Assembly (NCBI RefSeq): GCF_000243395.2
Contig: NZ_CM001484.1
Location: 2,227,847 to 2,291,846 of the forward strand
Source: Saccharomonospora glauca K62
GTDB taxonomy: Bacteria > Actinomycetota > Actinomycetes > Mycobacteriales > Pseudonocardiaceae
Direction of reading: 5' to 3'
Length of the DNA stretch: 64,000 nt
The notes under the pieces are model-generated. The model saw nothing but the letters and a program-made list of their open reading frames with translations, had not been told where the DNA came from and ran no database searches. A program made the position numbers and the translations under genes. Positions 20,522 through 43,823 of the stretch are shown here, piece after piece (the first letter of the stretch is position 1; the number at the start of each line of letters is the position of its first letter).

Positions 20522-20548
20522 GGCGGCGTGCGAAGGAAAGGGAACACG

Positions 20549-21706: not shown

Positions 21707-21733
21707 TGTCGACAGCGAGGAGACACGAACGTC

Positions 21734-22948: not shown

Positions 22949-22992
22949 ACACCGGCTACGAGTACACGCGAGAAACCGAGGGTGAGGCAGGG

Positions 22993-23856: not shown

Positions 23857-23878
23857 CGAACGAGAAGGGTTGGGACAC

Positions 23879-24124
23879 ATGGAAGATCGGCTGCAGATCG
23901 TACGCGACTACATCCACGGGCACCTGGGCAACGTGACCGTGGCCGACGACGAGGACTTGTTCAAGGGCGGGTATTTGAACTCGCTGTTCGCCGTGCAGAT
24001 CGTGGTGTGGTTGGAGAAGCGGTTCGGCATCGCGGTGCGCGGCTCCGATCTCACGCTCGACAACTTCCGCTCCATCAAGGACATCGCGGCGTTCGTCGAC
24101 GACTACTTCACGCTCATCGGTTGA
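23879..24124 (+). CDS. free-standing acyl carrier protein
   Basis: The 81-residue protein is acidic and helical, with the phosphopantetheine-attachment Ser35 in GGYLNSLFAVQ. Length and motif match discrete ACPs that carry unusual PKS extender units (FkbJ/ZmaH-like). It ends the four-gene extender operon and is the likely partner of the aaRS-like ligase and both dehydrogenases. A strong palindromic terminator follows 12 bp after the stop. Confidence 0.92.
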   Translation: MEDRLQIVRDYIHGHLGNVTVADDEDLFKGGYLNSLFAVQIVVWLEKRFGIAVRGSDLTLDNFRSIKDIAAFVDDYFTLIG

Positions 24125-24193: not shown

Positions 24194-24559
24194 TCAGTTG
24201 CCGTGCTCGGTGTAGAGGTTGGCGGCGGACAGCTTGTCGATCTTGGCGTGGAGGTCGTCGAGGGCAGTCTTCAGTTCCGTCAGCTCGTTGAGGTGAGCGC
24301 GGTTGTCGCCCTTGCGTACCGGGGGCTTGATCGCGCCCCAGATGTCGTTCTCGGCGTATTCCACCTCCTTGAGCACCCGGTCGATGACGCCCTCGGTGCT
24401 TCGCACGATGCTGGACAGGTACAGGAAGATCGTGTTCTTGTCGCGTTCGACGAGGGTTCTGGTGCTGTCGAGGATGTCGTTGATGTAGTTCTTGATGAAG
24501 TTGCCCTCGTCGGGTGTCGTCGTGGTCTTGGTCTTGGCCTTCGGTTCGGTCTGCGCCAT
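24194..24559 (-). CDS. small helical protein of unknown function
   Basis: The 121-residue protein has a Lys/Thr-rich N-terminus followed by two long amphipathic stretches (about 20-70 and 85-118) that look helical or coiled-coil. There is no Cys, signal peptide or membrane segment and no family I recognise. A strong ribosome-binding site (GAGGAAAGGAAG) precedes the ATG, and it lies 42 bp downstream of the P450 gene, so it is the last gene of the five-gene operon. A structural or partner protein is possible. Confidence 0.75.
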   Translation of the reverse strand: MAQTEPKAKTKTTTTPDEGNFIKNYINDILDSTRTLVERDKNTIFLYLSSIVRSTEGVIDRVLKEVEYAENDIWGAIKPPVRKGDNRAHLNELTELKTALDDLHAKIDKLSAANLYTEHGN

Positions 24560-24601: not shown

Positions 24602-25813
24602 TCACGACCGGCGGCGCACCACCACCGGAAGTCGTCGAGGTGCCCACATGCCCTGTTCGTAGAACGGCAGTGGGTCACGTCGGTCGATGCGGATGTCGTC
24701 GAAGCGGTCGAACAGCAGGTTGGCCGCCACCGCCGCCTCCATGCGGGACAGCGCGGCTCCGACACAGAAGTGGATGCCGTGGCCGAAGCTGACGTGGCCG
24801 TTGGGGAATCGGTCGATGTCGAACTCGTCGGGGCGAGTGAATTTCCGCTCGTCCCGGTTGGCCGAGGAGAACCACAGCATCACCAGTGATCCCGCCGGGA
24901 TCGGGGTGCCGGCGACCTCCGCGTCCACCCGCGCGACTCGCATGAACCGGGTGCCGGAGGGTCGGTAACGCAGGACCTCCTCCACCGCCTTGCCGATGAG
25001 GGTGCGGTCCTTACGGAGCCGGGCGGCCACCTCGGGGTGCTCGTCCAGGCAGAGCAGCATGTTGGCGATGAGCCCGTTGGTGCTGAAGTGGCCGACGAAC
25101 AGCAGCGCCAGGCAGATGTTGACGACCTCGTCCTCGTCCAGGCGGCTGCCGTCGTCCTCAGCGGCCGCGAGTTTGCTGATCAGGTCGTCTTTCGGGGTGG
25201 TCACCCGGTCGCGGTACTGGTCGAGCAGATAGCCGCGGACCTCGTCGGTGACCCGGCTCATCATGCTGCCGTAGCCTTCCTCGTCGTCGGTCGGGTCGTC
25301 CCCGACCTGCAGCGAGGCGAGTTTGTCGGCGTAGCTGAGGAACAGTTCCCGGTCGCTGACCGGCACGCCGAGCAGTTCGGCGATGAGCATCGCGGGCAGC
25401 GGCCAGACGAACGTCTCCACCAGGTCGAAGGAGTCGCGCCCGTCGAGCGCGTCGAGCAGTTCGGCGCCCATCCGGTAGGTGCGTTGCTCGTACTCCCGCA
25501 CGTTGGTCAGGGTGAACGCCTGCCCCACGAGGTTGCGGAGCCGGCGGTGTTCGGGCGGGTCGGTCCACGCGGGGTTGCCGCGGGTGATGTTCTCCGCGCC
25601 GAGCGCGTCGCGGTTGAGTTCGGACGAGAACGTTTGCGGGTCTGAGGCGACGCGGCGGACGTCGTCGTAGCGGAACACGTGGTAGACGCCGTGCCGGTCG
25701 CGGTAGACGGGTTCGTGTTCGCGCATCCAGCGCAGCCAGTCCAGTTGCGCTTGGCCGCCGTCGGTCAGCGGTGGCGGGTCCGACGGCACGGTGGGGGTCG
25801 GTGTTTCGGTCAT
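24602..25813 (-). CDS. cytochrome P450 with atypical I-helix
   Basis: The 403-residue bacterial P450 has the ExxR pair (EEVLRYR), the PERF-like RF region (FDIDRFPNGHVSFGHG) and the haem ligand Cys350 in GIHFCVGAAL. The I-helix, which normally reads (A/G)Gx(D/E)TT and delivers protons to the bound oxygen, reads VGHFSTN here. The acidic residue is replaced by Phe and the Thr by Ser. Such changes occur in P450s that use the substrate or another route for proton delivery, or catalyse unusual chemistry. It lies in the operon behind the PLP decarboxylase (30-bp gap). Substrate unknown; probably a pathway intermediate or a carrier-bound amino acid. Confidence 0.93.
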   Translation of the reverse strand: MTETPTPTVPSDPPPLTDGGQAQLDWLRWMREHEPVYRDRHGVYHVFRYDDVRRVASDPQTFSSELNRDALGAENITRGNPAWTDPPEHRRLRNLVGQAFTLTNVREYEQRTYRMGAELLDALDGRDSFDLVETFVWPLPAMLIAELLGVPVSDRELFLSYADKLASLQVGDDPTDDEEGYGSMMSRVTDEVRGYLLDQYRDRVTTPKDDLISKLAAAEDDGSRLDEDEVVNICLALLFVGHFSTNGLIANMLLCLDEHPEVAARLRKDRTLIGKAVEEVLRYRPSGTRFMRVARVDAEVAGTPIPAGSLVMLWFSSANRDERKFTRPDEFDIDRFPNGHVSFGHGIHFCVGAALSRMEAAVAANLLFDRFDDIRIDRRDPLPFYEQGMWAPRRLPVVVRRRS

Positions 25814-25843
25814 CGGTTTCGGTCCTCTTCCTTGTCGAGTCGG

Positions 25844-27220
25844 CTAGGCCGCGGCGACGAGCCGCTCCAGGCGTTCGTGTAGTTCGTCCACGTAGAACTC
25901 GGACTCGGGTTTCATCAACACGCTGCGCAGCACGCGTGTGACTTCGGTGTCTCGGCGGACGTCCGGGTGCAGGCCGGCGAACGTGTCGCCCGCCAGCCGC
26001 ATCAGGCTGAGGAACACGGGGTCCGCGCCGTCGTGCATGCCCGCGTCCAGCATGGCCGCGCAGGCGCGGTCGATCCTCGACAGTGTCGCCGGGGTGCATC
26101 GCGGGAAGTAGGTGACGATGTCGAGGTCGGGGGTCTGGTGCAGGCGCAGCCGATCCGATCCGGCCAGCAGCTCGGCCAGCCGCAGCGCCGCGCGTCGGTT
26201 GGCGGCCAGGATCTCGCCGAGGCCGTCTTTGGTGAGGGGGAACAGTTGGAGGGTGAGCCACAGCGCCGCGGCCGCCGCGCCCGCTCTGGAGCATTCGAGG
26301 CTGATCTCTCCCAGGTGCAGGTCCGCGGGGGTGAAGTAGGTGTAGGGCGAGTCGTGGACGTAGTACTGGGCCACGCTCGGGTCGGCGAAGAGTACCGAAC
26401 CGCAGCCGTAGGGTTGCAGGCCTTGTTTGTGGGGGTCGACCACCACCGAGTCGCAGTGGCGGATCGCCTCCCACGGTGCCGGGTCGAGGTCGTGGGTTCC
26501 GGCGAGGATGGTGTAGAAGCCGCCGTAGGCGGCGTCGACGTGGAAGCGGACGTCGTAGCGTTGCCGTAAGGTCATGGCCTCGGCCAGCGGGTCGATGGCG
26601 CCAACGCCGGTGGTGCCGAGGGTGAACACCACGGTGCCGATCTTCCCGGTGCGCAGGAGGGCTTCCAGAGCGTCGAGGTCCATCCGCCCGTAGGGATCGG
26701 TGGGCACGGGATGTCCGGGGACGTCGAGGAGCTTGGTCATCCGTTCGTGCGTGTAGTGGCTGGCGGTGCTGTAGGCGATGCCGCGGTCGGGGTGCAGGCA
26801 GCGGGCGACGTAGAGGGCTTCGAGGTTGGCCATCGTGCCGCCGGAGGTGAGATGGCCGATGTGGGTGTCGAACCCGAACATCGCGGCGAGTTGGTCGATC
26901 ACCTCGCGTTCCATGCGGTCGGTGACCGGTCCCCCGTCGCTGGAGTGGTTGTTGGGGTTGATCAGCATCGCGCTCAGGTAGGCGACCACGGCCGCTTCGT
27001 GGGGCGGCTTGAGCATCTGACCGATGTAGCGTGGGTGAAAGAAGGGGTAGTTGCCGTGCAGCAACTTCTCGTAGTTCTCGAAGACGGTGGCGAAGCGGTC
27101 GTCGCTGACGTCCAGGGAGGGGTGCCGGGTGTACGGGGGGAAGGTGGAGGTCCATTGCGCGTGGCCCTCCGCCGCTCGGCTCAGCCAGTAGAGAAGATCC
27201 ACCGTGGTCAGCCTTTCCAC
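25844..27220 (-). CDS. PLP-dependent group II amino acid decarboxylase
   Basis: The 458-residue protein has the fold-type I decarboxylase core: HLTSGGTMANLEAL for phosphate binding, the Asp contact in FHVDAAYGG, and the PLP Lys265 in VDPHKQGLQ. Relatives decarboxylate tyrosine, DOPA, tryptophan, aspartate, glutamate or diaminobutyrate. In some biosynthetic clusters such enzymes work on carrier-bound amino acids (beta-alanyl starters). The GTG at 27220 is 4 bp from the upstream P450 stop; an in-frame GTG at 27202 with GGAAAGG before it is an equal alternative. The neighbouring gamma-glutamyl ligase suggests that the amine product may be capped. The amino acid substrate cannot be fixed from sequence. 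Confidence 0.9.
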   Translation of the reverse strand: MERLTTVDLLYWLSRAAEGHAQWTSTFPPYTRHPSLDVSDDRFATVFENYEKLLHGNYPFFHPRYIGQMLKPPHEAAVVAYLSAMLINPNNHSSDGGPVTDRMEREVIDQLAAMFGFDTHIGHLTSGGTMANLEALYVARCLHPDRGIAYSTASHYTHERMTKLLDVPGHPVPTDPYGRMDLDALEALLRTGKIGTVVFTLGTTGVGAIDPLAEAMTLRQRYDVRFHVDAAYGGFYTILAGTHDLDPAPWEAIRHCDSVVVDPHKQGLQPYGCGSVLFADPSVAQYYVHDSPYTYFTPADLHLGEISLECSRAGAAAAALWLTLQLFPLTKDGLGEILAANRRAALRLAELLAGSDRLRLHQTPDLDIVTYFPRCTPATLSRIDRACAAMLDAGMHDGADPVFLSLMRLAGDTFAGLHPDVRRDTEVTRVLRSVLMKPESEFYVDELHERLERLVAAA

Positions 27221-27224
27221 ACCT

Positions 27225-28475
27225 TCACTTGGTGACGGTCACCGGCAGGGTCTTGATCCCGTTGACGAAGTTGGAGCGCAGTCGTGTCACCGGCCCGGTG
27301 ACGCGGATTTGTTCCACCCTGGCCAGGAGTTCCTCGAACAGGATTCGCAGTTCCATGCGTGCGAGCGCGGAACCGAGGCAGAAGTGCGGGCCGCCCAGGC
27401 CGAAGGTCAGGTGGTCGTTGGGGGTTCGGCCGACGTCGAACTCGTAGGGGCGGTCGAACACGGTCTCGTCGCGGTTGCCCGAGGCGAACCACATCACCAC
27501 CTTGTCTCCGGCGCGGATCGGTTGGCCGGCGAGTTCGGTGTCGCGGGTGGCGGTGCGGCGGAAGTGGTACACCGGCGAGGCCCAGCGCAGGAATTCCTCG
27601 ACCGCGGTCTCGATCAGGTCGGGGTTCTCCTTCAGGCGCCACCACTGCTCGGGGTTTTCCGAGAGGGCGAGCACGGCCGAGGAGATGGCGTGTCGGGTGG
27701 TCTCGTTGCCCGCGACGACGAGGAGGAGGAAGTAGTTGTCGAAGTCGGTCGGGGTCAGTGGGACGCCGTCGCGGGGCACGGTGTTGACGAGTTTGCTGAC
27801 CAGGTCGGTTCCGGTGCCGCCGCGGCGTTGGGCGGCCAGTTCGCGGCCGTAGCGGAAGATCTCCAACGCGGCCGGGCTGCGGAAGGGGATGTGCTTGTAG
27901 CGCTCGCTGTCGGGGCTGTCCATCAGCACGTCGGCGCAGTCGGGGTCGTGGTTGCCGATGATGCGGTTGCCCCAGGCAATGAGTTTGCCGGTGTCCTCGG
28001 CCGGGACGTCGAGCATCAGGCGGGCGAGCACCATGATCGGAAGTTCGGCGGCGACCTCGGCGACGAAGTCGAAGGACTCGGAGCGCAGCGCGTTGTCCAG
28101 CGTGGTGGCGGTGAGCCCGCGGAGGAACACCGCGTACTGCGCCACCGTGCGGGGGGTGAAGTCGCGTTGCACGAGCAGTCGCAGGGACCGGTGCCGGTGG
28201 CCGTCGGTCTCCATCATCGACCGGCGTAGGTCGCGGATCTGCGGGTCGTGGATCTCTTCGAGGTTGGTGAAGTACTCGGAGGTGAAGGTGGCGGGGTCCC
28301 GGTTGACCGCCACGATGTCGGACCAGCGGGTGACGGCCCAGAATCCGCTGTTGGGTTCCGGCTCGGGGTGCCAGTGGACCGGGCTGTGCTTGCGCAGCAC
28401 GTCGAACATCCGCCAGGGAGCCTGCGGGTCCAGGAACCGGTCCAGGTCGCACAGATTCACGTCGTCCAGGCGCAT
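27225..28475 (-). CDS. cytochrome P450 with canonical motifs
   Basis: The 416-residue P450 has a normal I-helix (VVAGNETTRHAI), ExxR (EEFLRWA) and haem Cys366 in GLGGPHFCLGSAL. The C-terminal stretch (RLRSNFVNGIKTLP) is like that of CYP124/125/142-type enzymes, but substrate range cannot be inferred from that alone. It is second in the operon led by the glutamine-synthetase-like gene (31-bp gap) with GAGGAAA before its ATG. Unlike the other P450 of the operon it should be a standard hydroxylase; no ferredoxin gene is adjacent. Confidence 0.94.
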   Translation of the reverse strand: MRLDDVNLCDLDRFLDPQAPWRMFDVLRKHSPVHWHPEPEPNSGFWAVTRWSDIVAVNRDPATFTSEYFTNLEEIHDPQIRDLRRSMMETDGHRHRSLRLLVQRDFTPRTVAQYAVFLRGLTATTLDNALRSESFDFVAEVAAELPIMVLARLMLDVPAEDTGKLIAWGNRIIGNHDPDCADVLMDSPDSERYKHIPFRSPAALEIFRYGRELAAQRRGGTGTDLVSKLVNTVPRDGVPLTPTDFDNYFLLLVVAGNETTRHAISSAVLALSENPEQWWRLKENPDLIETAVEEFLRWASPVYHFRRTATRDTELAGQPIRAGDKVVMWFASGNRDETVFDRPYEFDVGRTPNDHLTFGLGGPHFCLGSALARMELRILFEELLARVEQIRVTGPVTRLRSNFVNGIKTLPVTVTK

Positions 28476-28506
28476 CGGGTTTCCTCGTCGGTCGGTGGTC
28501 GGCGGG

Positions 28507-29799
28507 TCACAGGTGCGGGAGGTACTCGTGGAGCTCCCAGTCGGTCACCCAGCGCCGGAACCGTTCCGTCTCGTCGCGTTTGATCCGGTCGAACGCGGCA
28601 ACCAGATCCTTACCGAGGGCGTCGACGAACGCGGTGTCGGCTGCCAGCGCGTCGAGGGCGGCGTCCAAGGTTCGTGGCAGTGCCGGTCGGGATCGGCCGT
28701 CGTAGCCGTAGCCGCTCGTCGGGTCGGGGGGCTCCACACGGTCCTCGATGCCCAGGGCCACCGCGGCCAGGACCGCGGCGATCACCAGGTGGGGCACCGC
28801 GGCGGCGTCGCCGAGTCGGATCTCCAACCGGGTGGCGGCGCCGCGTTCGGGAGGAATGCGCACCATGGTCGACCGGTTGTCCAGACCCCAGTCGGCCAGG
28901 GCGGGAGCCAAGGTGTCGGGGCCCAGTCGACGATAGGCGTTCACGGTGGGGGCCAGCAGGGCACATAGCGCGGGTGCGTGGCGGAGCAGGCCCCCGACGG
29001 CGTGGCGTGCCAGCGGTGACAACCCGGCCGGTTGGGTGGGCGCGTCGAAAAGGTTGTTTCCGTCCGCGTCCCGCAAGGACAGGTGGAGGTGGAATCCCGA
29101 GCCGCCTTCGTCATTGAAAGGTTTGCCCACGAAAGTGGCGGTAAGGCCACGGCGCGCGACGATCTCGCGGACCGCGTGTTTGAAACGGAAGGCCCGGTCG
29201 GCGGCGTCGAGCGCGTCGGAGTGGGCGAGATTGACCTCGAACTGGCCCGCGGCGAACTCGTGGTTGACGGCGGTGACGTTCAGCTCCGCCCGGCTCAGGG
29301 TGGTCAGCAGTTCCGTGGCCAGGCCGTCAGGGTCGCCGCGGTGGCCGACGCGGTAGACGTTGCCGGGAGAGGTGTCGTAGGGGCGCCACCGGCCGTCGGA
29401 GTTGGTCAGGACGAAGAACTCCAGTTCGGGGCCGACCACGGGGTGGTAGTCGTGGTGCTCCAGGCGTCGCAGTACCTGCTTCAGCGCGGCGCGCGGACAC
29501 TCCCCGATCGGCAGTCCGGTCACCGGGTCGAGCATGTCGCCGAGGCAGGAGCGGTAGCCGGGAAGCCACGGCAGCGGCGCCAACGTCGAGCGGTCGGGGT
29601 GGAAGGCCACGTCCGGCAGGCCATCGGCCAGTGAGTGCTCCCCGTCGAGGGTGCCGCCTCGGGTGGTGGTGTAGTAGACGGCGCGGCAGAAATGCACGCC
29701 TCCGGTCAGCGAGTCGAACACCTCCGTGGGCAGGTCACGGCCCCGCTCCGTGCCGATCAGGTCGGGATATTGGATCCGCACCGTTCCGGCATTGTCCAC
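28507..29799 (-). CDS. glutamine-synthetase-like gamma-glutamyl-amine ligase
   Basis: The 430-residue protein belongs to the short GS-like family (PuuA/GlnA3-like). The Glu-rich metal site (GPELEFFVL), the HEFAAGQFEVNL motif and the conserved GSGFHLHLSL and RIPPERG regions are present. These enzymes join the gamma-carboxyl of glutamate to an amine instead of ammonia. The start is a GTG at 29799 with GAGGGTG before it. It leads an operon with two P450s and a PLP decarboxylase and is divergent from the hpaE-like gene. With the gamma-glutamylcyclotransferase-like gene at 33295 it could form a cap-and-remove pair for an amine. Confidence 0.88.
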   Translation of the reverse strand: MDNAGTVRIQYPDLIGTERGRDLPTEVFDSLTGGVHFCRAVYYTTTRGGTLDGEHSLADGLPDVAFHPDRSTLAPLPWLPGYRSCLGDMLDPVTGLPIGECPRAALKQVLRRLEHHDYHPVVGPELEFFVLTNSDGRWRPYDTSPGNVYRVGHRGDPDGLATELLTTLSRAELNVTAVNHEFAAGQFEVNLAHSDALDAADRAFRFKHAVREIVARRGLTATFVGKPFNDEGGSGFHLHLSLRDADGNNLFDAPTQPAGLSPLARHAVGGLLRHAPALCALLAPTVNAYRRLGPDTLAPALADWGLDNRSTMVRIPPERGAATRLEIRLGDAAAVPHLVIAAVLAAVALGIEDRVEPPDPTSGYGYDGRSRPALPRTLDAALDALAADTAFVDALGKDLVAAFDRIKRDETERFRRWVTDWELHEYLPHL

Positions 29800-30031
29800 A
29801 ATGCACCCTCGCCTTCCGTGGAGTGGGAGACCGCGCAGGAACTAGTCGCAAGTTGTGTGGCGAGCCGTTTTCAGCGTAGCGACACATTCGGTCCGGTCAC
29901 ACGAAAACGTTGTCTCGTTTGGTTTTACGAGTGTCTCAATTGGTCTGTGTTCACGAATGACGTCGTTGCCCGGAATCGTTCTCGGCGGTTAGCGTCGACG
30001 CGCCTGGCCATACTCGGTTCGAGGGGGCTTG
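29800..30031. promoter_or_regulatory. divergent promoter region
   Basis: This 232-bp region between the GS-like and hpaE-like genes is less GC-rich than its surroundings and must drive both operons. A possible -35/-10 pair for the + strand is TTGCCC (29968-29973) and TTAGCG about 17 bp on, but the match is loose. No repressor palindrome stands out. Confidence 0.35.
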
Positions 30032-31492
30032 ATGCCAGTCACGACAATTGCCGGGAACCCGGTCGAGACCGGGCACTGGATAGGCGGGAAACGGATCGAC
30101 TCGTCGCGGCGCTTCCGCTCGGTGTCACCGGTGGATCAACAGCCGCTGGGTGAGTTCGCGCGCGGCGGGACTCGGGAGGCCGACGCCGCGGTGCGCGCGG
30201 CGTCGGAGGCGTTCCCGACGTGGAGCCGCACCCCCGCCGAGACCCGCGCGGAGCTCCTGCACCGGATCGCCGACGAGGTCGAACGCCGGATTCCGGAGCT
30301 GGCGACGGTGGAGACGGCCGACAACGGGGCGTTGTTGCGTTCGCACGTGCGGAGCGTGATGCCACGGGTGGCGCACAACTTCCGGTTCTTCGCCGACTGG
30401 CTTACCGGGGAGCTGTCGCATCCGGAGTTCGACACGCGCGGGCACCGCAACGCGGTGTCGTGGGACCCGTCGGGGGTGTGCGTGCTGATCACCCCCTGGA
30501 ACGCCCCGCTGATGCTGGAGTCCTGGAAGGTCGCCCCGGCGTTGGCGGCGGGCAACACGGTGGTGCTCAAACCCGCGGAGTGGTCCCCCGCCACCGCGTC
30601 GGTGCTCGCCGACATCACCGCGGTGGCCGGACTGCCCGACGGGGTGTTCAACGTCGTGCAGGGGCTGGGGCCCGAGGTCGGTGCGCCGCTGTGCGCACAC
30701 CCCGACGTGGCGCGGATCAGCTTCACCGGCTCGGAGGCGACCGCGCGCCGGATCGCCGCCGCCGCGGCGGAGAATCTCACGCCGCTGTCGATGGAGCTGG
30801 GAGGTAAGTCGCCGCTGCTGGTGTTCGACGACGCCGACCTGGAGTTGGCCGTGGCGTTGGCGGTCGAGCAGTACGACAACGCCGGGCAGGTGTGCCTGGC
30901 GGCAACCCGGATCCTGGTCCACTCCCCCGTAGCCGAGGAGTTCACCGCGCGCCTGCGGACCGCGATTGGGGAGATCAAGCAGGGAGATCCACGCAAGGAC
31001 GACACCGACGTCGGCCCGAACATTCATCCCGACCACGTGGCGCGGATCGACGGTTTCGTCCGCAGAGCCGTCGCGTCGGGCGCGCGGGTCCTGGAAGGAG
31101 GAGGCCCCAACACCGAGTTGGGGGGCACCTACTACCGGCCCACCTTGCTCGACCAGGTGCGCCCCGGCGCGGAGATCCTGCGGGAGGAGGTGTTCGGGCC
31201 GGTGCTGACGTTGGAGGTGTTCGACACCGAGCGGGAAGCCGTCGCCCGAGCCGACGACACCCGCTTCGGGCTGGCGGCGACGGTGGTCACCTCCGATCCC
31301 GAGCGCGCGCGTCGCGTGTCGGCCGAGCTGACCGCGGGCACGGTGTGGGTGAACTGCTTCTTCGTGCGGGATCTGCGTGCTCCCTTCGGCGGGGCACGGC
31401 ACTCGGGCATCGGCCGGGAGGGCGGCACCTGGAGTTTCGACTTCTTCTGCGACGTGAAGAACACGGTGACCGGTCCGAAGGGATGGCGGTGA
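30032..31492 (+). CDS. aldehyde dehydrogenase, HpaE-like
   Basis: The 486-residue protein has the ALDH fold with the NAD site (ITPWNAPLMLESWKV; FTGSEATARRIA), the general-base Glu in MELGGKSPLLVF and the nucleophilic Cys in NAGQVCLAATR. It is closest in type to 5-carboxymethyl-2-hydroxymuconate semialdehyde dehydrogenase. The next two genes (HpaD- and HpaG-like) continue the same homoprotocatechuate meta-cleavage route, with no gap to the next start. Inside a biosynthetic cluster it could instead oxidise an aldehyde made from an amine. The ATG at 30032 is favoured over the TTG just before it. Confidence 0.9.
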   Translation: MPVTTIAGNPVETGHWIGGKRIDSSRRFRSVSPVDQQPLGEFARGGTREADAAVRAASEAFPTWSRTPAETRAELLHRIADEVERRIPELATVETADNGALLRSHVRSVMPRVAHNFRFFADWLTGELSHPEFDTRGHRNAVSWDPSGVCVLITPWNAPLMLESWKVAPALAAGNTVVLKPAEWSPATASVLADITAVAGLPDGVFNVVQGLGPEVGAPLCAHPDVARISFTGSEATARRIAAAAAENLTPLSMELGGKSPLLVFDDADLELAVALAVEQYDNAGQVCLAATRILVHSPVAEEFTARLRTAIGEIKQGDPRKDDTDVGPNIHPDHVARIDGFVRRAVASGARVLEGGGPNTELGGTYYRPTLLDQVRPGAEILREEVFGPVLTLEVFDTEREAVARADDTRFGLAATVVTSDPERARRVSAELTAGTVWVNCFFVRDLRAPFGGARHSGIGREGGTWSFDFFCDVKNTVTGPKGWR

Positions 31493-32380
31493 ATGGGTGA
31501 GGTGGTCGGCGGCGGACTGCTGTCGCACGTACCGACGATCGTGCTGCCGGAGGCGGTGCGGCGTGAGCTGAACAACGGTGAGGAATCCACGCTGGTCACG
31601 GGGCTGCGACGGCTGCGGGAGGAGGTGTTCACTCCCGACACCTACGACACCGTGGTCGTCTTCGACTCCCACTGGGCGACCACCGTGGAATTCGTGGTCA
31701 CCTCGCATACCCTGCGAGCCGGCGTCTTCACCTCCGCCGAACTGCCCCGAGGGATGCGCCGGGTGCCCTACGACTTTCCCGGTGATCCCGAGTTGGCGCA
31801 CGCGCTGGCGGCACGGGCCGGGGACTACGACACGTGGATTACGCCCGTGGACGACCCGTACCTGCCGATGTCCTACGCCACGTTGAACCTGTGGTCCTAT
31901 CTCGGGGTCGAGGGACGGCGGTGGGTCAGCATCGGGGTGTGCCAGACCGGGGACACGGAGGACCACCTGCGGTTGGGGCGGGCGCTGGCCGACGCGATCC
32001 GGGATGTCGACCGGCGGGTCCTGCTGATCGCCTCCGGGGCGTTGAGCCACCGGTTCTGGCCGTTGCGGCAGCTTCGTGACCACGAGGCGGCCGACCCGAG
32101 ACACATCATCACCCCGGAGGCGGCCGCGGCCGACCGGCAGTGCATCGGACGGCTGGAGGCCGGTGACCACGCCGCGGTGCTCGCCACGCTGCCGGAGTTT
32201 CTCCGCTACAAGCCGGAAGCCGGGTTCGCGCACTACCTCATGCTGGTGGGCTGCCTCGGTGGGAAGGACTGCGTCGCCCGCGCGCGGCGCTACAGCGACT
32301 ACGAGAACTCGGCCGGGACGGGTCAGATCCACCTCTGGTTCGACCGCCCGGCGCGGGGATGGACGGGAGGCGACGCATGA
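31493..32380 (+). CDS. LigB-type extradiol catechol dioxygenase, HpaD-like
   Basis: The 295-residue protein is a type III (LigB) extradiol dioxygenase. The iron-ligand His residues in GGLLSHVP and DSHWATT, and the conserved GALSHRFWPL stretch with its active-site His, are present. The family includes 3,4-dihydroxyphenylacetate 2,3-dioxygenase, which opens the ring next to the two hydroxyls. It starts immediately after the ALDH stop codon and overlaps the FAH-type gene by 4 bp (ATGA). A tyrosine- or DOPA-derived catechol is a likely substrate, by family. Confidence 0.9.
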   Translation: MGEVVGGGLLSHVPTIVLPEAVRRELNNGEESTLVTGLRRLREEVFTPDTYDTVVVFDSHWATTVEFVVTSHTLRAGVFTSAELPRGMRRVPYDFPGDPELAHALAARAGDYDTWITPVDDPYLPMSYATLNLWSYLGVEGRRWVSIGVCQTGDTEDHLRLGRALADAIRDVDRRVLLIASGALSHRFWPLRQLRDHEAADPRHIITPEAAAADRQCIGRLEAGDHAAVLATLPEFLRYKPEAGFAHYLMLVGCLGGKDCVARARRYSDYENSAGTGQIHLWFDRPARGWTGGDA

Positions 32381-33228
32381 CCAGGGAGATTCGCAGGATC
32401 CTGCTCGACGGCGCGACCGTGGAGGTGCACCGCAAAGGGGACATGCTGTTCGCCCCGGACGGGCGGCACGTCCCGGTGGAGGAGGCGGTGCACCTGCCGC
32501 CCTGCACCCCGACCAAGATCATTGCCGTGCACCTCAACCACCGCAGCCGGTTCGAGGAGTTCTGCGCGACGCCGGGGCCCGCCCCGACGTACTTCCACAA
32601 GCCGATCTCGACGCTCAACGCGCACCAGGGGCATGTGGTGCGGCCCGCCGGGTGCCGGTGGCTGAACTACGAGGGAGAGATCGCCGTGGTGATCGGCCGC
32701 ACTGCCCGCAACATCGGCGTGGCCGAGGCCGGCGAGTACATCCGCGGCTACACCCTCGCCAACGACCTGGGGCTGCACGACTTCCGGGACACCGACGAGG
32801 GGTCGATGCTGCGGGTGAAGGGCGCGGACACGTTGTGCCCGCTCGGGCCCGCCCTCGTGGAGGGCTGGGACTGGCGTGGGCGGACGCTGCGTACGCGGGT
32901 CAACGGCGAGGTGGTCCAGGAGGCCAACACCGACGAGATGACGTGGGACCCGCACTATCTCGTGGCCGACATCGCGCGTCTGATCACTCTCGTACCCGGC
33001 GACGTGCTGTTGACGGGCACCCCGGCGAACTCCCGTCCGATCCGGCCGGGGGACACGGTGGAGGTGGAGGCCGACGGGCTCGGCGTGCTCCGCAACACCG
33101 TGGTGGAGGGCCCGGTGCCGGTGACCGGGCCGGTGGGGGCCCAGCCCACCGAGTCCGAACAGGTGCTCTCCACCGCGTTGGGTGGTGACTGGGAGTTCCG
33201 AGGCATCCGCGCTCCCCTGCCGAGCTGA
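32377..33228 (+). CDS. FAH-family isomerase/decarboxylase, HpaG-like
   Basis: The 283-residue protein has the fumarylacetoacetate hydrolase C-terminal domain with its metal-binding Glu cluster: NYEGEIAVVIGR, GYTLANDLGLHDFR, KGADTLCPLGPALV. The terminal LLTGTPANSRPIRPGD is diagnostic. HpaG proteins decarboxylate and isomerise the tricarboxylic product of HpaE in the homoprotocatechuate pathway. The ATG at 32377 overlaps the stop codon of the dioxygenase gene. No HpaH, HpaI or HpaF homologue follows, so the route stops after this step here. Confidence 0.9.
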   Translation: MTREIRRILLDGATVEVHRKGDMLFAPDGRHVPVEEAVHLPPCTPTKIIAVHLNHRSRFEEFCATPGPAPTYFHKPISTLNAHQGHVVRPAGCRWLNYEGEIAVVIGRTARNIGVAEAGEYIRGYTLANDLGLHDFRDTDEGSMLRVKGADTLCPLGPALVEGWDWRGRTLRTRVNGEVVQEANTDEMTWDPHYLVADIARLITLVPGDVLLTGTPANSRPIRPGDTVEVEADGLGVLRNTVVEGPVPVTGPVGAQPTESEQVLSTALGGDWEFRGIRAPLPS

Positions 33229-33233
33229 ACACT

Positions 33234-33274
33234 CGATGGCCCCGGAGCGCGAATCGCATGCTCCGGGGCCATCG
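33234..33274. terminator. 15-bp hairpin between convergent genes, bidirectional terminator
   Basis: CGATGGCCCCGGAGC (33234-33248) is repeated inverted at 33260-33274 with an 11-base loop. It starts 5 bases after the HpaG-like stop and ends 20 bases before the stop of the convergent cyclotransferase-like gene. Confidence 0.8.
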
Positions 33275-33294
33275 GACACGAGGAAACGGGTTTC

Positions 33295-33720
33295 TCAGTT
33301 CGCCTGCACGGCCACCCAGTCACCGCCCAGGATGGGCACGTTCTCGTCGTAACGGCCTCGCGCGGCGGGGCCGCTGAGATACAGCCATGCGGGCACGTCG
33401 GCCCACGATTCGTTCGCGGCGAGATAGCTCACCGAGCGTTTGGTGCGGACGTAGAGGCTGTCCTCCGGGCGGTCGGGGTGGTACTTCTCCAGGCGGTCGA
33501 GGTCGGCGAGCGCCTCCTCGTAATGCCGGTCGGCGAGAATCATCAGCTCCCCGACGATCCGCTGCCCGGCCCGTTCCACGGCGAACGGGATGCGGTCGCC
33601 GAACAACGCCAGATCGTCGGCCATGGCCGGGTAGCTCTCGGCCACCCGGTCGGCGATCAACCCGTGGTTGCGCTGCCCGCTGCGTAGGGTGCCGTAGACG
33701 AAAACCGGTAGGCGTTCCAC
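33295..33720 (-). CDS. gamma-glutamylcyclotransferase-like protein (AIG2/BtrG family)
   Basis: The 141-residue protein has the YGTLR substrate-binding motif at the start (residues 9-13) and the acidic catalytic region (LADLDRLEKYHPD) of the AIG2/GGCT fold. Members cleave gamma-glutamyl amines with formation of pyroglutamate; BtrG does this to unmask an amine in butirosin synthesis. A strong ribosome-binding site (AAGGAGGG) precedes the GTG at 33720. The gene is 34 bp downstream of the KAS III gene. With the GS-like ligase in the cluster it makes a plausible deprotection step. Confidence 0.85.
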   Translation of the reverse strand: MERLPVFVYGTLRSGQRNHGLIADRVAESYPAMADDLALFGDRIPFAVERAGQRIVGELMILADRHYEEALADLDRLEKYHPDRPEDSLYVRTKRSVSYLAANESWADVPAWLYLSGPAARGRYDENVPILGGDWVAVQAN

Positions 33721-33754: not shown

Positions 33755-34726
33755 TTAATACCAGCGGAGCACCGCCGCGCCGGCGGTCATTCCCGACCCG
33801 ATCGCGGCCATGACCACCAAATCGCCTCGCTCGGCTCGCAGCTCGCTGAGGACCAGCGGGATCGACGCGGCGCCGGTGTTTCCGCTCAGCACGCCGGGCA
33901 CCGGGCACTTCGCCGGGTCGATCCCCATGGCGTTGATGCAGTCGGCGAGCATCTGCGGGTTGGCCTGGTGGAACACGAAGTGGTCGATGTCGTCCAAGGA
34001 GACACCGGCTTGTTCGACGACCTCGTGGATGAGCTTGGGCACGACCTCCTCGAAGTACTCCCGCACCTTGCGCCCGTGCATCACCATGTACCGTTCGCGG
34101 GCGTTGACGGTGGTGGCGTCCAGCGGGCGGCGGCTTCCGCCCGCTGGCTGGCCCACGTAGTCGGCGTGGCAGCCGTCGGTGATCAGCGTGTGCGTGAGCA
34201 GCCCGTAGCCGTCGGGAACCCGGCCCACCCTGGTGGCGGCGGCCCCGTCGCCGAACACGGTGACGGTCTTGCGGTCGGACTGGTAGAGCACCTTCGAGAT
34301 CGTGTCGGCGCCGATCACCAGCACCTCCTCCAGCGCCGGATTGGCGCTGAGCAGGGAGTGCGCGGTCACGAACGAGAAGAGGTAGCCCGAGCAGGCGGCA
34401 CTGAGATCGAAGGCGAACGCCCTGCCCAACCCCATCCGGCCCTGCACGATGGCGGCGGTGGAGGGGAAGTTGTGGTCGGGCGTGCTCGTGCCGAGGATAA
34501 CCGCGCCGACGCTGGCGCGCTTCTCCGGGCAGGAAGCGTACAACTTCTCGACCGCGAGGCAGGCCATGTCCGAAGTGGACACCTCCGGCGCGGCGTAGTG
34601 CCGCTCCTTGATGCCGGTCCGTTCGAGGATCCAGTCGGGATCCCGGTCGACCCAGGCACCCACCTGGTCGTTGTCGATCACTCTGGGAGGCAGGTAACCG
34701 GCGGCGCCGAGAATTCCTGTGGACAT
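33755..34726 (-). CDS. ketoacyl-ACP synthase III (FabH-like)
   Basis: The 323-residue protein is a complete KAS III with the Cys-His-Asn triad: Cys112 in SAACSGY, His253 in VFHQANP and Asn283 in LSGNTGAA. Such enzymes condense an acyl-CoA with malonyl-ACP to start a chain; some cluster-borne members acylate other substrates. It has its own ribosome-binding site (GAAGGAG) and follows a 155-bp, lower-GC gap that may carry a promoter. In this cluster it could build the starter acyl group for the NRPS, or modify an intermediate. Confidence 0.92.
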   Translation of the reverse strand: MSTGILGAAGYLPPRVIDNDQVGAWVDRDPDWILERTGIKERHYAAPEVSTSDMACLAVEKLYASCPEKRASVGAVILGTSTPDHNFPSTAAIVQGRMGLGRAFAFDLSAACSGYLFSFVTAHSLLSANPALEEVLVIGADTISKVLYQSDRKTVTVFGDGAAATRVGRVPDGYGLLTHTLITDGCHADYVGQPAGGSRRPLDATTVNARERYMVMHGRKVREYFEEVVPKLIHEVVEQAGVSLDDIDHFVFHQANPQMLADCINAMGIDPAKCPVPGVLSGNTGAASIPLVLSELRAERGDLVVMAAIGSGMTAGAAVLRWY

Positions 34727-34881: not shown

Positions 34882-35709
34882 TCAGATGGTGACTCCTCCC
34901 CCGCAGGTGAGGATTTCCCCGGTGACGTAGTCGGAATCGGGGCAGCAGAACAGGTAGATCGACCCGGCTGCCTCGGTCACCGTGCCGAAACGGCCCAGGG
35001 GGACGGTTTGGACTATGTGGTCGAGAACCGCGTCGTTCACGCCGATCGGGATTTCCCGGTCGCCGACCGGAATGGTGTGTCCCTCGGTGACCGAACTGAT
35101 GAGTCGGGTGTCGATGATTCCGAACGCGACCGCGTTGACGTTCACGCGGTACCGGCCCCATTCCTTCGCGAGCGTTTTCGTCAATCCGAAGATGCCCGCC
35201 TTCGCCGAGGCGTATCCCACCTGGCCCACGTTGCCGTAGATCGCGGCGATCGACGACACGTTCACGACTTTCCGGTGCACGTACCGGCCCCGTTTCTCGT
35301 CGTTTTTGGCCTGGTCGCGCAGGATCGGCTGGGCCGCGCGCAGGATCCGGAACGGGGCCTTGAGGTGGGTGTCGAGCATGGTGTCCCACTGCTCGTCGGT
35401 GGTCTTCTGGATGACGTTGTCCCACGGGAATCCCGCGTTGTTCACCACGATGTCCAGGCTGCCGAACTCCCGCACCGCGGTGGCGACGAATTCCTCGGCG
35501 AACCCGTCGGCGGTGACGTCACCGACGTAGCCCACCGCCGCTCCTCCCGCCGAGGTGATCGTCGCGACCGTGTCGTCCACCGCCTTCTTGTCCATGCCGT
35601 TGACCACTACTCCGGCGCCCTCGGCCGCGAGTCGTTCGGCCACCGCCCGGCCGATGCCTCGGCTGGAGCCCGAGACGATCGCGCCCCTTCCCGCTAGCGT
35701 TGCACTCAC
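34882..35709 (-). CDS. short-chain dehydrogenase/reductase (FabG-like)
   Basis: The 275-residue protein has the NAD(P)-binding GSSRGIGR (about 15-22), NNAG, and the catalytic Ser in VSSIAAIYG with the Tyr-x-x-x-Lys of GYASAKAG. A charged insertion (about 135-147, NDEKRGRYVHRK) precedes the catalytic Ser. It reduces a beta-keto group or oxidises an alcohol on a carrier-bound or free intermediate. Its GTG start overlaps the exporter's stop codon by 4 bp, so it is translated together with the exporter and the NRPS upstream of it. Confidence 0.92.
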   Translation of the reverse strand: MSATLAGRGAIVSGSSRGIGRAVAERLAAEGAGVVVNGMDKKAVDDTVATITSAGGAAVGYVGDVTADGFAEEFVATAVREFGSLDIVVNNAGFPWDNVIQKTTDEQWDTMLDTHLKAPFRILRAAQPILRDQAKNDEKRGRYVHRKVVNVSSIAAIYGNVGQVGYASAKAGIFGLTKTLAKEWGRYRVNVNAVAFGIIDTRLISSVTEGHTIPVGDREIPIGVNDAVLDHIVQTVPLGRFGTVTEAAGSIYLFCCPDSDYVTGEILTCGGGVTI

Positions 35710-37199
35710 TGCTGCTGCCCTCCGGTCGTCGTTGTCGCTCCGGCCGCCGTGGCCGGGGCCGTCCGAGGTAGGAACCACGCCACCAACCCGCACGCCGCCA
35801 CCAGCACCGCGCCGGTCAACTGCGCCGCCCCGATGGCGTCGACGAAGGCCGCTCTCGCGCCCTCGGCCTGCTCGGGGGACCGCGCTCGGCTCAACGCCTC
35901 GGGAAGCGACCCGGCGGCGAGGCCTGCGGGCGACCGCCAGGTGAACAGCGCCGCGCTCACCGCACCGAGCACCGCCACACCGAGGGAGGCGCCCGTTTCG
36001 TGGACCATCCCCGAGACCCCGGACGCCGCACCGGTCTGCTCCGGGGGCACGGAACTCACCAACGCGTTCGTCACCAGGGGCCCGGCGATGCCGAGCCCGC
36101 AGCCCGCGGCCACGAGTCCCGGCGCCAGGGCCGCGTATCCCGCCGACGGCGGCACCAACGCGATGACCGCCAGCCCGGACGCCGCGAGGCACATGCCGGT
36201 GGTGATGCCGCGCGCCGCCCCCAGCCGGGCGCCGACGCGGGCACTGACGACGCTGCCGCACACCAGCAGCCCGAGCGCCATGGGCATCGTGCGCAGCCCG
36301 GCCTCCAGCGGGGTGTAGCCGTGGTTCAGTTGCAGGTGCTGGGTGAGCAGGAAGATCGACCCGGCCAGCCCGAACGCGGCCAACAGGCTCGTGATCACCG
36401 ACAACCGGAACGCCGGGACCCGGAACAACGCCATGTCCAACATGGGCTCATGGGTGCGTTTCTCCTGCCGGACGAACGCGGCCAGCAGGAGCGCGCCCAC
36501 CCCCAGGGCCCCCAGGACCGCCGGGGAGGCCCAGCCTCGGCCGGGGCCGGCGATGATGGCCCACCCGATGCTCACCATCGCGCCCGCCGACAGCAGCGCC
36601 CCGACCACGTCCGGCCGCCGCCCGCGCGGACCCCGGAACTCCGGCACCAGGGAGCGGGCGAACACCAGGCACACCACGGCGATCGGGATGTTGATCGCGA
36701 AGACCGCGGGCCAGGAGAACCGCGCCAGCAGCGCACCCCCGATGACGGGACCGAGCGCCTGTCCGCCCGCGGCGACGGCCGTCCAGATCCCGATCGCCTT
36801 GGGCCGCTGCTGTTCGGGAAAGACACGGGTCAGCACGGCTAGCGTGGCCGGGATGATGCAGGCGCCCCCGATCCCCATGCCCGCGCGGGCCGCGATCAAC
36901 TGCACGGGCTCGGTCGCGGTCGTCGCGACCGCGGACCCCACCCCGAACAAGGCCAGCCCGGCCAGCCAGGTGGTGCGGTATCCGACGAGGTCCGCCACCC
37001 CGCCCGCGACCACCGAGAGACAACCCACGGCGACCGTGTACGCGTTGACCATCCACTGGATCTGCGCGGTGGTGGCGCCGAGCTGCTCGATGATCGACGG
37101 GATCGCGATGTTGACCACGGTGTTGTCGAGCACGGTCAGAAAGAGGGTCAGGCACAAAACGGCCAGCACCCACCAGCGTCGGGAGGCGGAGAGCGTCAT
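35706..37199 (-). CDS. MFS exporter (DHA2-like, about 14 TM)
   Basis: The 497-residue membrane protein has about 14 hydrophobic segments, the N-terminal signature LDNTVVNIAIPSI and the segment-5 motif GPVIGGAL of drug:proton antiporters of the EmrB/QacA type. The hydrophilic C-terminus is Thr/Gln-rich. Its ATG overlaps the stop of the NRPS gene by 4 bp and its stop overlaps the SDR start. It probably exports the cluster product and gives self-resistance. Confidence 0.94.
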   Translation of the reverse strand: MTLSASRRWWVLAVLCLTLFLTVLDNTVVNIAIPSIIEQLGATTAQIQWMVNAYTVAVGCLSVVAGGVADLVGYRTTWLAGLALFGVGSAVATTATEPVQLIAARAGMGIGGACIIPATLAVLTRVFPEQQRPKAIGIWTAVAAGGQALGPVIGGALLARFSWPAVFAINIPIAVVCLVFARSLVPEFRGPRGRRPDVVGALLSAGAMVSIGWAIIAGPGRGWASPAVLGALGVGALLLAAFVRQEKRTHEPMLDMALFRVPAFRLSVITSLLAAFGLAGSIFLLTQHLQLNHGYTPLEAGLRTMPMALGLLVCGSVVSARVGARLGAARGITTGMCLAASGLAVIALVPPSAGYAALAPGLVAAGCGLGIAGPLVTNALVSSVPPEQTGAASGVSGMVHETGASLGVAVLGAVSAALFTWRSPAGLAAGSLPEALSRARSPEQAEGARAAFVDAIGAAQLTGAVLVAACGLVAWFLPRTAPATAAGATTTTGGQQQ

Positions 37200-40100
37200 G
37201 TGCGGCTCCTCCGTCGCGCGAGCCGAGCTCGACCCGCCGCCGCCCGTGCGCCCAGCTCGGCGGAGGAGGGTCCCGTGTCGACGGTGTCGCTCTCCCCGTT
37301 CGGGTTCGCCGCCTCCGCGACGGCCTTGGCCTGCGCGGTCACCGTGGTGTGCTGGAACAGTTGCACCACCGAGAGGCGGACGCCGGTGGCCGCGGCAAGT
37401 TTGCTCTGCAACTTCAGCAGCACCACCGAATGGCCACCGAGGTCGAAGAAGTTGTCACGGGTGCCGACCCGGTCGAGACCGAGGACCTCGCCCCAGACCT
37501 CGCTGACCACGCGCTCCCAGCGGTCGCGTGGCGCCACGTACCCGGACTCGCCGCCGGGGCGGGTGCGGTCGGGGACGGGCAGTGCGCGGCGGTCCAGTTT
37601 GCCGCTCGGCGTCTTGGGCAGCTCCGCTAGTTCGGTGAGCACCGCGGGCACCATGTACTCCGGGAGCCGCTCGGCCAGGGCCGCCCTCACCGCGGCCAGG
37701 TCCGTTCCCGGCGAGCGGGGCACCACGTAGCCGACGAGCCAGGTTCCCCCGGAGTCGGTGTGCACCGTAACCGCGGCCTCGGCGACCTCGGGGTGTTCGC
37801 TCAGCGCCGCCTGGATCTCGCCGAGCTCGACCCGGAAACCACGGATCTTGACCTGGTCGTCGATGCGGTCGAGGTATTCCAGGAAACCGTCGGGAGTCCA
37901 GCGGACGAGGTCCCCGCTGCGGTACATGCGGCTGCCCGGTGGTCCGAACGGGTCGGGCACGAATCGGTCGCCGGTCAGCGCGGGTTTGCCGGCGTAGCCG
38001 CGGGCGACCTGCGGGCCGGCGATGTAGAGCTCTCCCGGCACTCCCGGAGGCGTCAGGCGCAGCCCGCGGTCGAGCACGTACATGCGCATGTTGCCCAGCC
38101 CGCGCCCGATGGGCACCCGGTGCGGCCAGGTGTGCGGGTCGGGCTCGAGGAGGTGCGCCGTGGCGGCGTGGGTCTCGGTCGGGCCGTAGAAGTTGTAAGC
38201 GCGTCGGTCGGGATGCGCGAGGAAGAACTGGCGGATGCGGTCGGTCACCATGAACGCCTCGCCGCCCTGCAGGACGTCGGTGAGTGACTCCAGCGCACTG
38301 CCCCGCGCTCCGGCGGCCTCGATCAGCGCCTCGATCGCCAGCCGTGGCGCGAACAGTTCATTCACCCGATGCCGGTCGATCCAGCGGACCAGCTCGTCCG
38401 GGTCCCGCCGTACGTGCTCGCCGGGGATGACCAGCGTCTTGCCCATCAGCAACGTCACCAAGGTCTCTTGGACCGAGAAGTCGAAGCTGATCGCGGTGAA
38501 CTGCGCGGTGCGCCACCCCGGACCGCCGCGCAGGGTGTTGCGGTGCCAGTCGAGCACGTTGACGATGCCGGAGGTGGGCATCACGACGCCCTTGGGCTTG
38601 CCCGTCGATCCCGAGGTGTAGATGACGTAGGCGGGGTTGCCGGGCAGTGCCGGACGTACGCGGTCGGCGTCGGTCGGGTCGTGGTCTACCCCGCCGGGCA
38701 GCGACGCGAGGGTGTCGAGGCCCTCGACGACCAACCGGGGTGCGCCCTCCGGGACGAGGTGGGTGAGCTCGGGGGTGGTGAGCACCAGCCGCGGCGCGCT
38801 GTCGTCGATCATGTAGCGGATCCGGTCGGCGGGATACTCCGGGTCGATGGGCAGGTAGGCCGCGCCCGACTTGAGGACGCCGAGGATGCCCGCCACCAGC
38901 TCGAACGACCGAGGCAGTACCAGCGCGACGACGTCCTCGGTGCCGATGTCCCGGCCGATCAGGTGGTGGGCCAACCGGTTGGCGGTGCGGTTCAGCTCGG
39001 CGTAGGTCAGCATCGCCTCGTCGCGGACGAGGGCGGGGTGGTCGCCGAGCCCGGCGGCCCGCTCCTCGAACAACTCGGCCACGGTCGCCGTGGTCACCTC
39101 GCGGTCGACGTCGTTGAACTCGACCAGCAACCGGTGACGTTCGTCGTCGAGGAGGATGTCGGGATCACCGATGCGCTGCTCGGGGTCGTCGGCCATCGCG
39201 CGCAGCATCGTGAACCATCGGCGCAGCAGGAGGTCGATGTCCTCGGGGTCGAACAGGTCGGTGCTGTACTCGACGTCCCCGCTGAGGCCTCCGACGTCGC
39301 CGTGGTTCTCGGCCAGGCTGAACACCAGGTCGAACCGCGAGGTGCCGGTGGGGATCGTGAGGGTCTCGCTGTCCAGGCCGGGCAGGGAAAGCTCGGCCGT
39401 GCCCGCGTTCTGCAGCACGAGCATGATCTGGAACAGCGGGTGGTGCGCGGTCGACCGTACCGGGTTCAGTTCCTCGACCAGCTGCTCGAACGGCACGAGC
39501 TGGTGCTCGTAGGCCTCCAGGTCGGTCTCCTTGACCCGCGCCAGTAGCTCGGAGAAAGACGGGTCGCCCTCGGTGTCGACACGCAGGACCAGCGTGTTGA
39601 CGAAGAACCCGACGAGGTCGTTGAGCGACTCGTCGGTGCGGCCCGCGATCGGGCTTCCCAACGGGATGTCGGTCCCGGCCCCCAGGCGGGTCAGCAACGC
39701 GGCCAGACCGGCGTGCAGCACCATGAAGAGCGTGCACCGATGCCGCTGGGCGAGGGCGACCAACGCGCGGTGCAGGTCCGGGTCCACGGTGAACTCGACG
39801 GTGTGTCCCCGGTAGGTGGCGCGGTCCGGGCGAGGTCGCGCCATGGGCAGTGACACTTGCTCGGGGCTGCCGGCGAGCCGTTTCCTCCAGTAGTCGATCT
39901 CGGCGATCGCGGCGTCGGAGCCCAACAGATCGTTCTGCCACAACGTGTAGTCGGCGTACTGGACGGGCAGCGGCGACCAGTCCGGGGCCCGCCCGGCCCG
40001 CCGGGCGTCGTAGGCCTCGGCGAGGTCACGGCACAGTGGTGCGAGCGACCATCCGTCGCCGGCGATGTGGTGCAGTGTCAGGAGCAGGACGTGTTCGCGG

Positions 40101-43607: not shown

Positions 43608-43823
43608 TCAGGCGGCTCCGTCCATCTGCCGCCGCACACTCAGCGGACGCATGTCCGTCCACACCTTCTCGATGTGGGCCAGGCAGTCGGCCTTGACGCC
43701 GGTGAACCCGACCTCGCGCCACCCCGCGGGCACGGTGCGCTCCGCAGGCCAGATCGAGTACTGCTCCTCGTCGTTGACGACCACGGTGTAGACGGTGGTG
43801 GTGTCGTCGTCCTCGAATGCCAT
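43608..43823 (-). CDS. MbtH-like protein
   Basis: The 71-residue protein has the MbtH signature: [19 protein letters not shown] and [19 protein letters not shown]. These small proteins bind NRPS adenylation domains and are needed for their folding or activity. It lies between the formyltransferase-like gene and the NRPS (33 and 28 bp gaps), with a good ribosome-binding site (AAGGAG). Confidence 0.96.

Follow-up and report, generated by a model that had tools for sequence, protein, structure and literature searches.

A proposed gamma-glutamyl-capped ring-cleavage route in an NRPS-PKS gene cluster of Saccharomonospora glauca K62

Why should a large region of nonribosomal peptide synthetase (NRPS) and polyketide synthase (PKS) genes carry both a glutamine synthetase (GS)-like gene and a gene for a GGACT/AIG2-like cyclotransferase? 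The question is raised by a stretch of 64,000 nucleotides from the 4.56 Mb genome of Saccharomonospora glauca K62 (G000:C1:2227847-2291846, ~69% GC; hereafter the window). An earlier note had placed a GS-like ligase and an AIG2-like cyclotransferase within an NRPS-PKS cluster at 28507-33720; both genes lie exactly there with Pfam support, and the surrounding NRPS and PKS genes bear out the context. The same note left out three plus-strand genes between the two, encoding an aldehyde dehydrogenase (ALDH), a LigB-type extradiol dioxygenase and a FAH-family protein (hereafter the trio).

Here, I propose that the genes at 24602-33720 provide the NRPS-PKS assembly line with an unusual building block, an aromatic ring being opened while the side-chain amine bears a gamma-glutamyl cap; I regard the chances for and against this reading as evenly balanced. 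The identities of the genes, their intact catalytic residues, their conserved linkage and the absence from the cluster of the lower half of a related catabolic pathway can be read directly from the DNA.

Ligase, cyclotransferase and ring-cleavage enzymes

The GS-like protein (430 aa) matches Pfam Gln-synt_C at 320.7 bits (E 1.4e-95). It falls below the cut-off of every NCBIfam glutamine-synthetase model (TIGR03105, 285.6 vs 469.6; TIGR00653, 269 vs 429), and below that of the PuuA model NF045547 (257.7 vs 650 bits). The flap glutamate of the ammonia site (GGEAP), which I take to be E327 in Salmonella numbering, is replaced by leucine (DTLAP) in nine of nine compared members of the GS-like family; it is present in L002, a GlnA-like protein of the same genome, relative to which the GS-like protein has a longer loop in place of the one with the second ammonia-site residue. 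This comparison rests on L002, the second GlnA-like protein (L001) having been missed by the motif filter. The motifs PELEF, HEF..GQxE, GSGxHxH, NRS and RxExR are retained, and presumably serve in binding glutamate, metal and ATP and in gamma-glutamyl-phosphate chemistry. Besides many GSs, the PDB matches include a glutamate-methylamine ligase (9qur). Since the residues for gamma-glutamyl-phosphate chemistry are kept, the ammonia-site glutamate is lost and the GS cut-offs are not reached, the protein fits a gamma-glutamyl-amine ligase of GS fold. A role in supplying glutamine to the cluster was also considered, and is disfavoured by the residue changes at the ammonia site. A GS so similar is found in eight of the 298 genomes of the order (S. 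glauca included), at 55-56% identity in the other seven.

The cyclotransferase (141 aa) matches Pfam GGACT (PF06094) at 71.5 bits (E 1.2e-19; curated cut-off 22.8), a family that acts on gamma-glutamyl amines. Its YGTL loop (Y9-G10-T11-L12) and E78, the latter presumably catalytic, are invariant in four of four sequences. These four were the only copies recovered at E 1e-15 from 390 genomes of the family: that of S. glauca itself, one each in G375 (A. dendrobii) and G411, and in G482 a relative at 47% (L117:14138-14605), which adjoins a class-II amidotransferase-like gene. The eleven other genomes listed under the genus of S. glauca gave no match at that threshold. The G482 relative was considered as a second cluster and set aside, its region looking mobile-element-like by eye and holding no recognised biosynthetic gene cluster (BGC) gene.

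The trio resembles enzymes of homoprotocatechuate cleavage. The best NCBIfam match of the ALDH is HpaE (508.8 bits, cut-off 638) and that of LigB is HpaD_Fe (127.4 bits, cut-off 316), both below cut-off; LigB also aligns with PDB entry 8iq8 (E 2e-22). Its His12, His60, His186 and Glu242, which I take to be the metal ligands and the acid-base histidine (H186), are invariant in 37/37 sequences. Beside the latter, position 187 is arginine in the clusters, as in the HpaD 8iq8, and threonine in most of the catabolic copies described below. The FAH protein reaches 195.1 bits against the HpaG-C domain model (cut-off 276), its top NCBIfam score being that of the general FAH-family model NF009399 (218 vs 444). 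Catalytic residues are intact in LigB, FAH and ALDH, as they are in the pyridoxal phosphate (PLP) decarboxylase and in one of two cytochromes P450 (P450b) encoded next to the ligase.

The genes for GS, P450b, PLP decarboxylase and the second P450 (P450a) form one packed minus-strand run with gaps of 31, 4 and 30 bp. ALDH and LigB adjoin with a gap of 0 bp, and LigB and FAH overlap by 22 bp. The cyclotransferase is the last gene of the NRPS operon, whose further members are ketoacyl-ACP synthase III (KASIII), SDR, MFS, NRPS IV, MbtH, formyltransferase, III, II and I (Table 1).

The whole cluster is collinear in G375 (locus L021) and in G411, which is taken as Amycolatopsis from the genus label common to G375: order and strand are the same and identities are 64-87%, the set including cyclotransferase, GS, P450b, PLP decarboxylase, trio, an ATP-grasp ligase and a free-standing acyltransferase (AT). 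The GS-like gene and the cyclotransferase are kept in both Amycolatopsis genomes at 74-80% identity, and because their order and strand are thus preserved in two other genomes the pairing is not due to chance.

Homologous operons and the proposed pathway

The genome collection holds 481 confirmed relatives of the GS-like gene, and the best 80 were examined with their flanks; these are full in 62 loci and shorter in 18, in which absences are weak. Within the fetched flanks, a neighbour was counted if its hit spanned half of the query or more and passed an identity threshold of my own choosing. The trio is found at 36 of the 80 loci, P450b at 48 (L021 included), an ADC protein at 53, MarR at 59 and an APC permease at 24; there follow a PuuD-like C26 peptidase (22), the PLP decarboxylase (22, mostly Lentzea), a second ALDH (ALDH2, PuuC-like; 15) and GATase (15). 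P450a (at least 45% identity) and the cyclotransferase each occur at a single locus, the sister cluster L021. All 36 trio loci keep the order ALDH-LigB-FAH on one strand; L021 aside, ADC accompanies the trio in 35 of 35, and C26 or ALDH2 in 25 of 35. P450b lies directly downstream of GS in 32/48, only loci with full-flank coordinates being counted. None of the other cassette genes is found in the 20 kb neighbourhood of either of the two ordinary GlnA genes of the genome. The GS-like ligase, the adjacent P450b and the trio are, judging from their sequences, homologous to an actinobacterial operon that occurs outside such clusters (e.g. L031:341-13507, L077:1197-17468 and L083:149-12632, among L022-L100).

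What this widespread operon may do is best seen in Glycomyces (L077), where the top-scoring NCBIfam models are HpaE, PuuC, PuuD, 4-aminobutyrate (GABA) transaminase and SSADH, with MppR for the ADC protein; the transaminase scores above its cut-off, PuuC and PuuD below theirs. Release of the amine as GABA would call for such a gene set, and the operon is predicted to be a route from a capped aromatic amine to GABA.

A catechol whose side chain is CH2CH2NH-R would be turned by HpaD/E/G-type steps into a C7 2-oxo acid, whose hydration and retro-aldol cleavage would yield pyruvate and R-NH-(CH2)3-CHO; with R being gamma-glutamyl, this aldehyde is the substrate of PuuC, and PuuD then frees GABA. 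If the GS-like enzyme caps an amine resembling dopamine, this would account for the co-occurrence of Hpa-like and Puu-like genes. I infer substrates, step order and the fate of the cap as follows. The PLP decarboxylase would provide an aromatic amine of the tyramine/dopamine type, most likely tyramine, to which the GS-like ligase would add gamma-glutamate; P450b would hydroxylate the ring to a catechol, LigB would open this ring beside the diol, the ALDH would oxidise the resulting aldehyde, and decarboxylation by the FAH protein would give a 7-(gamma-glutamylamino)-2-oxoheptenoate-type acid. Outside the cluster, the ADC protein would hydrate and split this acid into pyruvate and gamma-glutamyl-4-aminobutanal, which the PuuC-like enzyme would oxidise to gamma-glutamyl-GABA; the cap is probably removed by the PuuD-like peptidase, freeing GABA. 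In the cluster, the assembly line would receive the capped acid, whose cap the cyclotransferase would take off as 5-oxoproline, the freed amine remaining or closing a ring. An aniline-type pathway was considered as well and is less likely in view of the HpaD/HpaE-like trio and the GABA-producing lower half.

A reason for capping is offered by the 4-alkylproline pathway, in which extradiol cleavage by LmbB1 of DOPA with its free amine gives a semialdehyde that cyclises to a pyrroline (PMC5519988). A capped amine cannot condense with the ring-cleavage aldehyde, and the aldehyde therefore stays open for the ALDH. The purpose of the cap would here differ from that in butirosin. The protect/deprotect cycle suggested in the earlier note is thereby sustained in part: the amine-ligase-like residues and the confinement of the cyclotransferase, among the GS loci examined, to the cluster agree with it, but the conserved partners of the ligase are P450b and the trio, and the purpose differs.

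The lower half is missing from the cluster. With tblastn queries for ADC, C26, GabT, MarR, APC, GATase and reductase, no hit at 1e-4 was obtained in the window and the 40 kb retrieved on its right side (L004, L005), of which ~35 kb lies past its end. The stretches retrieved from G375, G411 and G482 gave none either, and the query for the second ALDH matched only the clusters' own ALDH. On the simplest reading, the cluster kept the upper half for precursor supply, with the cyclotransferase in place of the peptidase for uncapping. The wider proposal is of an undescribed actinobacterial route from tyramine or dopamine to GABA via capped ring cleavage, of which the NRPS-PKS cluster took the upper half, swapping peptidase for cyclotransferase, with late uncapping leading to cyclisation or to a free omega-amine; taken as a whole, this is tentative and rather less probable than the building-block proposal itself.

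Some catabolic loci show variations of their own. In certain Streptomyces operons (L083, by eye) ferredoxin- and reductase-like genes stand beside the P450. Lentzea loci (L027-L030, L032-L033, L035-L037 and others) combine GS, PLP decarboxylase and MarR, with no trio within 10 kb, and suggest that there the amine may be made and capped for another end. At L056, L082 and L099 the GS-like gene lies between two P450b-like genes, perhaps for successive hydroxylations.

Counter-evidence, alternatives and known systems

Several observations weigh against the proposed pathway. Most NCBIfam equivalog cut-offs are not reached. Cluster copies differ from their catabolic homologues, in LigB at Arg187, in GS at 19 of 192 conserved columns and in the PLP decarboxylase at 67 of 366 columns (17 comparators, mostly Lentzea); the amine may therefore differ too, and is perhaps not tyramine. 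The pathway substrates are themselves inferred, and no adenylation domain is tied to a ring-opened product. The cyclotransferase gene sits in the NRPS operon and not in the capping operon, so that its product may act on something else, e.g. the assembly-line product; its fold model, built from four sequences, was poor (predicted local distance difference test score, pLDDT, 47) and was not used. Elsewhere the genome has a second GGACT gene, one distant ADC gene and four weak C26-family genes, which means that help from outside the cluster is possible.

The position of the cyclotransferase also speaks for a butirosin-type arrangement, in which the ATP-grasp ligase would add a gamma-glutamyl or other aminoacyl group for the cyclotransferase to remove, the GS-like enzyme serving only in precursor supply. 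That ligase has relatives among the L-amino acid ligases, BacD for example, and is kept in three of three clusters at 70-72% identity, a further point against the pathway proposed here. BacD-like ligases presumably form alpha-peptide bonds as a rule, and it is just in the clusters with the cyclotransferase that the C26 deglutamylase of the lower pathway is lacking; I consider this arrangement unlikely, if the most serious of the competing explanations. Could the PLP decarboxylase, GS, P450b, ALDH, LigB and FAH genes instead be a catabolic island that entered the cluster as a passenger, with no role in the product? Their homologues form catabolic-looking operons outside such clusters, and the trio lies on the strand opposite to the NRPS genes. 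Against this, neither the place of the cassette nor its gene order differs between three genomes of the family, in which its identities equal those of the NRPS genes, and it would not work as a catabolic route because ADC, C26, PuuC-like ALDH, permease and MarR are absent; a passenger origin is improbable. Slightly less probable again is that the cyclotransferase has no part in a designed cycle and serves repair or self-protection, freeing by-products or the finished product of gamma-glutamyl groups. GGACT-type enzymes are common (9 of 14 control genomes), S. glauca has its second copy, and the G482 relative lies in a mobile-element-like region without a BGC gene recognised by eye, all of which would suit such a role, but the gene is tightly linked to the cluster in three of three copies.

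Returning to capped ring cleavage, the nearest known systems each share a part of it. In the Puu pathway (putrescine to GABA via PuuA, PuuC and PuuD) a GS-family ligase likewise caps an amine, and the later ALDH and C26 peptidase of the catabolic homologues best match PuuC and PuuD; here, in contrast, the amine is proposed to be aromatic, a ring would be cut between capping and uncapping, and PuuC/PuuD-like genes are absent from the cluster. Homoprotocatechuate meta-cleavage (HpaD, HpaE, HpaG) is echoed in the best matches of LigB and ALDH and in the high scores of FAH against HpaG domain models, whereas cut-offs are missed, an amine ligase and a P450 accompany the trio, and ADC takes the place of hydratase and aldolase. 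Gamma-glutamyl protection in butirosin biosynthesis employs the ATP-grasp ligase BtrJ and the cyclotransferase BtrG. An AIG2-like cyclotransferase in a biosynthetic cluster is common to both, yet GS-family capping of a free amine ahead of ring opening is proposed only here. The contrast with butirosin drawn in the earlier note holds inasmuch as a GS-like ligase is present, and is blurred by the ATP-grasp gene of the same cluster, with which a butirosin-like pair is possible.

Capping by a GS-like enzyme, seen in that note as a different solution, already has a precedent: the GS homologues FzmN and KinL of fosfazinomycin and kinamycin biosynthesis place acetylhydrazine on glutamate (PMC6133997). 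They too belong to biosynthetic clusters and form a gamma-glutamyl intermediate; their substrate is acetylhydrazine and they are conserved together with an amidase, an N-acetyltransferase and others, the accessible part of that paper naming neither a cyclotransferase nor ring cleavage. The 4-alkylproline pathway of lincomycin and the pyrrolobenzodiazepines similarly opens a tyrosine-derived catechol by extradiol cleavage to obtain a peptide building block; its free amine closes the pyrroline at once (PMC5519988), whereas here the amine would be decarboxylated and capped. No homologue of the C-C-cleaving LmbA-type gamma-glutamyltransferase was noticed in the cluster, no search having been aimed at one. 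GlnA2, GlnA3 and GlnA4 of Streptomyces coelicolor are GS-like and gamma-glutamylate polyamines or ethanolamine for catabolism; aromatic ring-cleavage partners are not mentioned in the excerpts available.

No paper was recognised as describing the pathway or the cluster among the titles and abstract beginnings searched, in which subscription journals are little covered, and absence from print is not shown thereby. Within that literature, the joining of gamma-glutamyl capping to catechol ring cleavage, with its upper half captured by an NRPS-PKS cluster, is new. If true, it would explain in plain chemical terms why an amine is capped ahead of ring cleavage, would link a catabolic operon to secondary metabolism through loss of the lower half, and would point to building blocks of a new type. 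For the catabolic version, the step from genes to pathway is itself a prediction that can be tested in many actinobacteria.

Gene map and further features of the cluster

Table 1. Features of the cluster (positions in the window unless a locus is given)
Feature	Position	Strand	Remarks
Probable aminomalonyl-ACP supply operon: acyl-CoA dehydrogenase, aminoacyl-tRNA synthetase-like ligase, 3-hydroxyacyl-CoA dehydrogenase, acyl carrier protein (ACP)	20528-24124	+	Kept in both sister clusters
121 aa protein	24194-24559	-	Without NCBIfam match; 76-82% identity in both sister clusters
P450a, second cytochrome P450	24602-25813	-	p450 107.5 bits
PLP decarboxylase, proposed aromatic-amine source	25844-27220	-	Pyridoxal_deC 81.6 bits
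P450b, cytochrome P450, proposed ring hydroxylase	27225-28475	-	p450 80.4 bits
GS-like gamma-glutamyl-amine ligase, proposed capping enzyme	28507-29799	-	Pfam Gln-synt_C
ALDH, HpaE-like	30029-31492	+	Best NCBIfam match HpaE
LigB-type extradiol ring-cleavage dioxygenase, HpaD-like	31493-32380	+	LigB 86.6 bits
FAH-family protein, proposed HpaG-like isomerase/decarboxylase	32359-33228	+	FAA_hydrolase 189.7 bits
GGACT/AIG2-like cyclotransferase, proposed uncapping enzyme	33295-33720	-	Pfam GGACT
KASIII	33755-34726	-	Pfam ACP_syn_III, ACP_syn_III_C
SDR reductase, FabG-like	34882-35712	-	
MFS exporter	35706-37199	-	
NRPS IV	37196-43579	-	C-A-T-C-A-T
MbtH-like protein (presumed)	43608-43823	-	80% identical copies in two sister clusters
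Formyltransferase-domain protein	43857-45455	-	Formyl_trans_N 68.4 bits
NRPS-PKS III	45452-53569	-	C-A-T-KS-AT(inactive)-KR-T-TE; AT without GHSxG Ser
PKS II	53566-58164	-	KS-AT-KR-T
PKS-NRPS I	58196-64000	-	KS-AT-T-C-A-T-C-like-A-T; continues beyond the window to ~69856
ATP-grasp ligase	L004:12840-14084		Adjoins free-standing adenylation protein
Free-standing AT	L004:16577-17875		

The five adenylation codes were read by eye with positions and codes that I assume to be right, two being Ser-like, one pipecolate-like and two ambiguous; they are too weak for naming the product. The pipecolate-like code, if so assigned, would suit a cyclised product and proves nothing. The operon at the left of the cluster is taken to be of the ZmaGHIJ type, its ACP being assigned on the same assumption, and together with the free-standing AT it suggests extension with aminomalonyl-ACP. 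These genes match PKS module III, whose own AT is without the catalytic serine.

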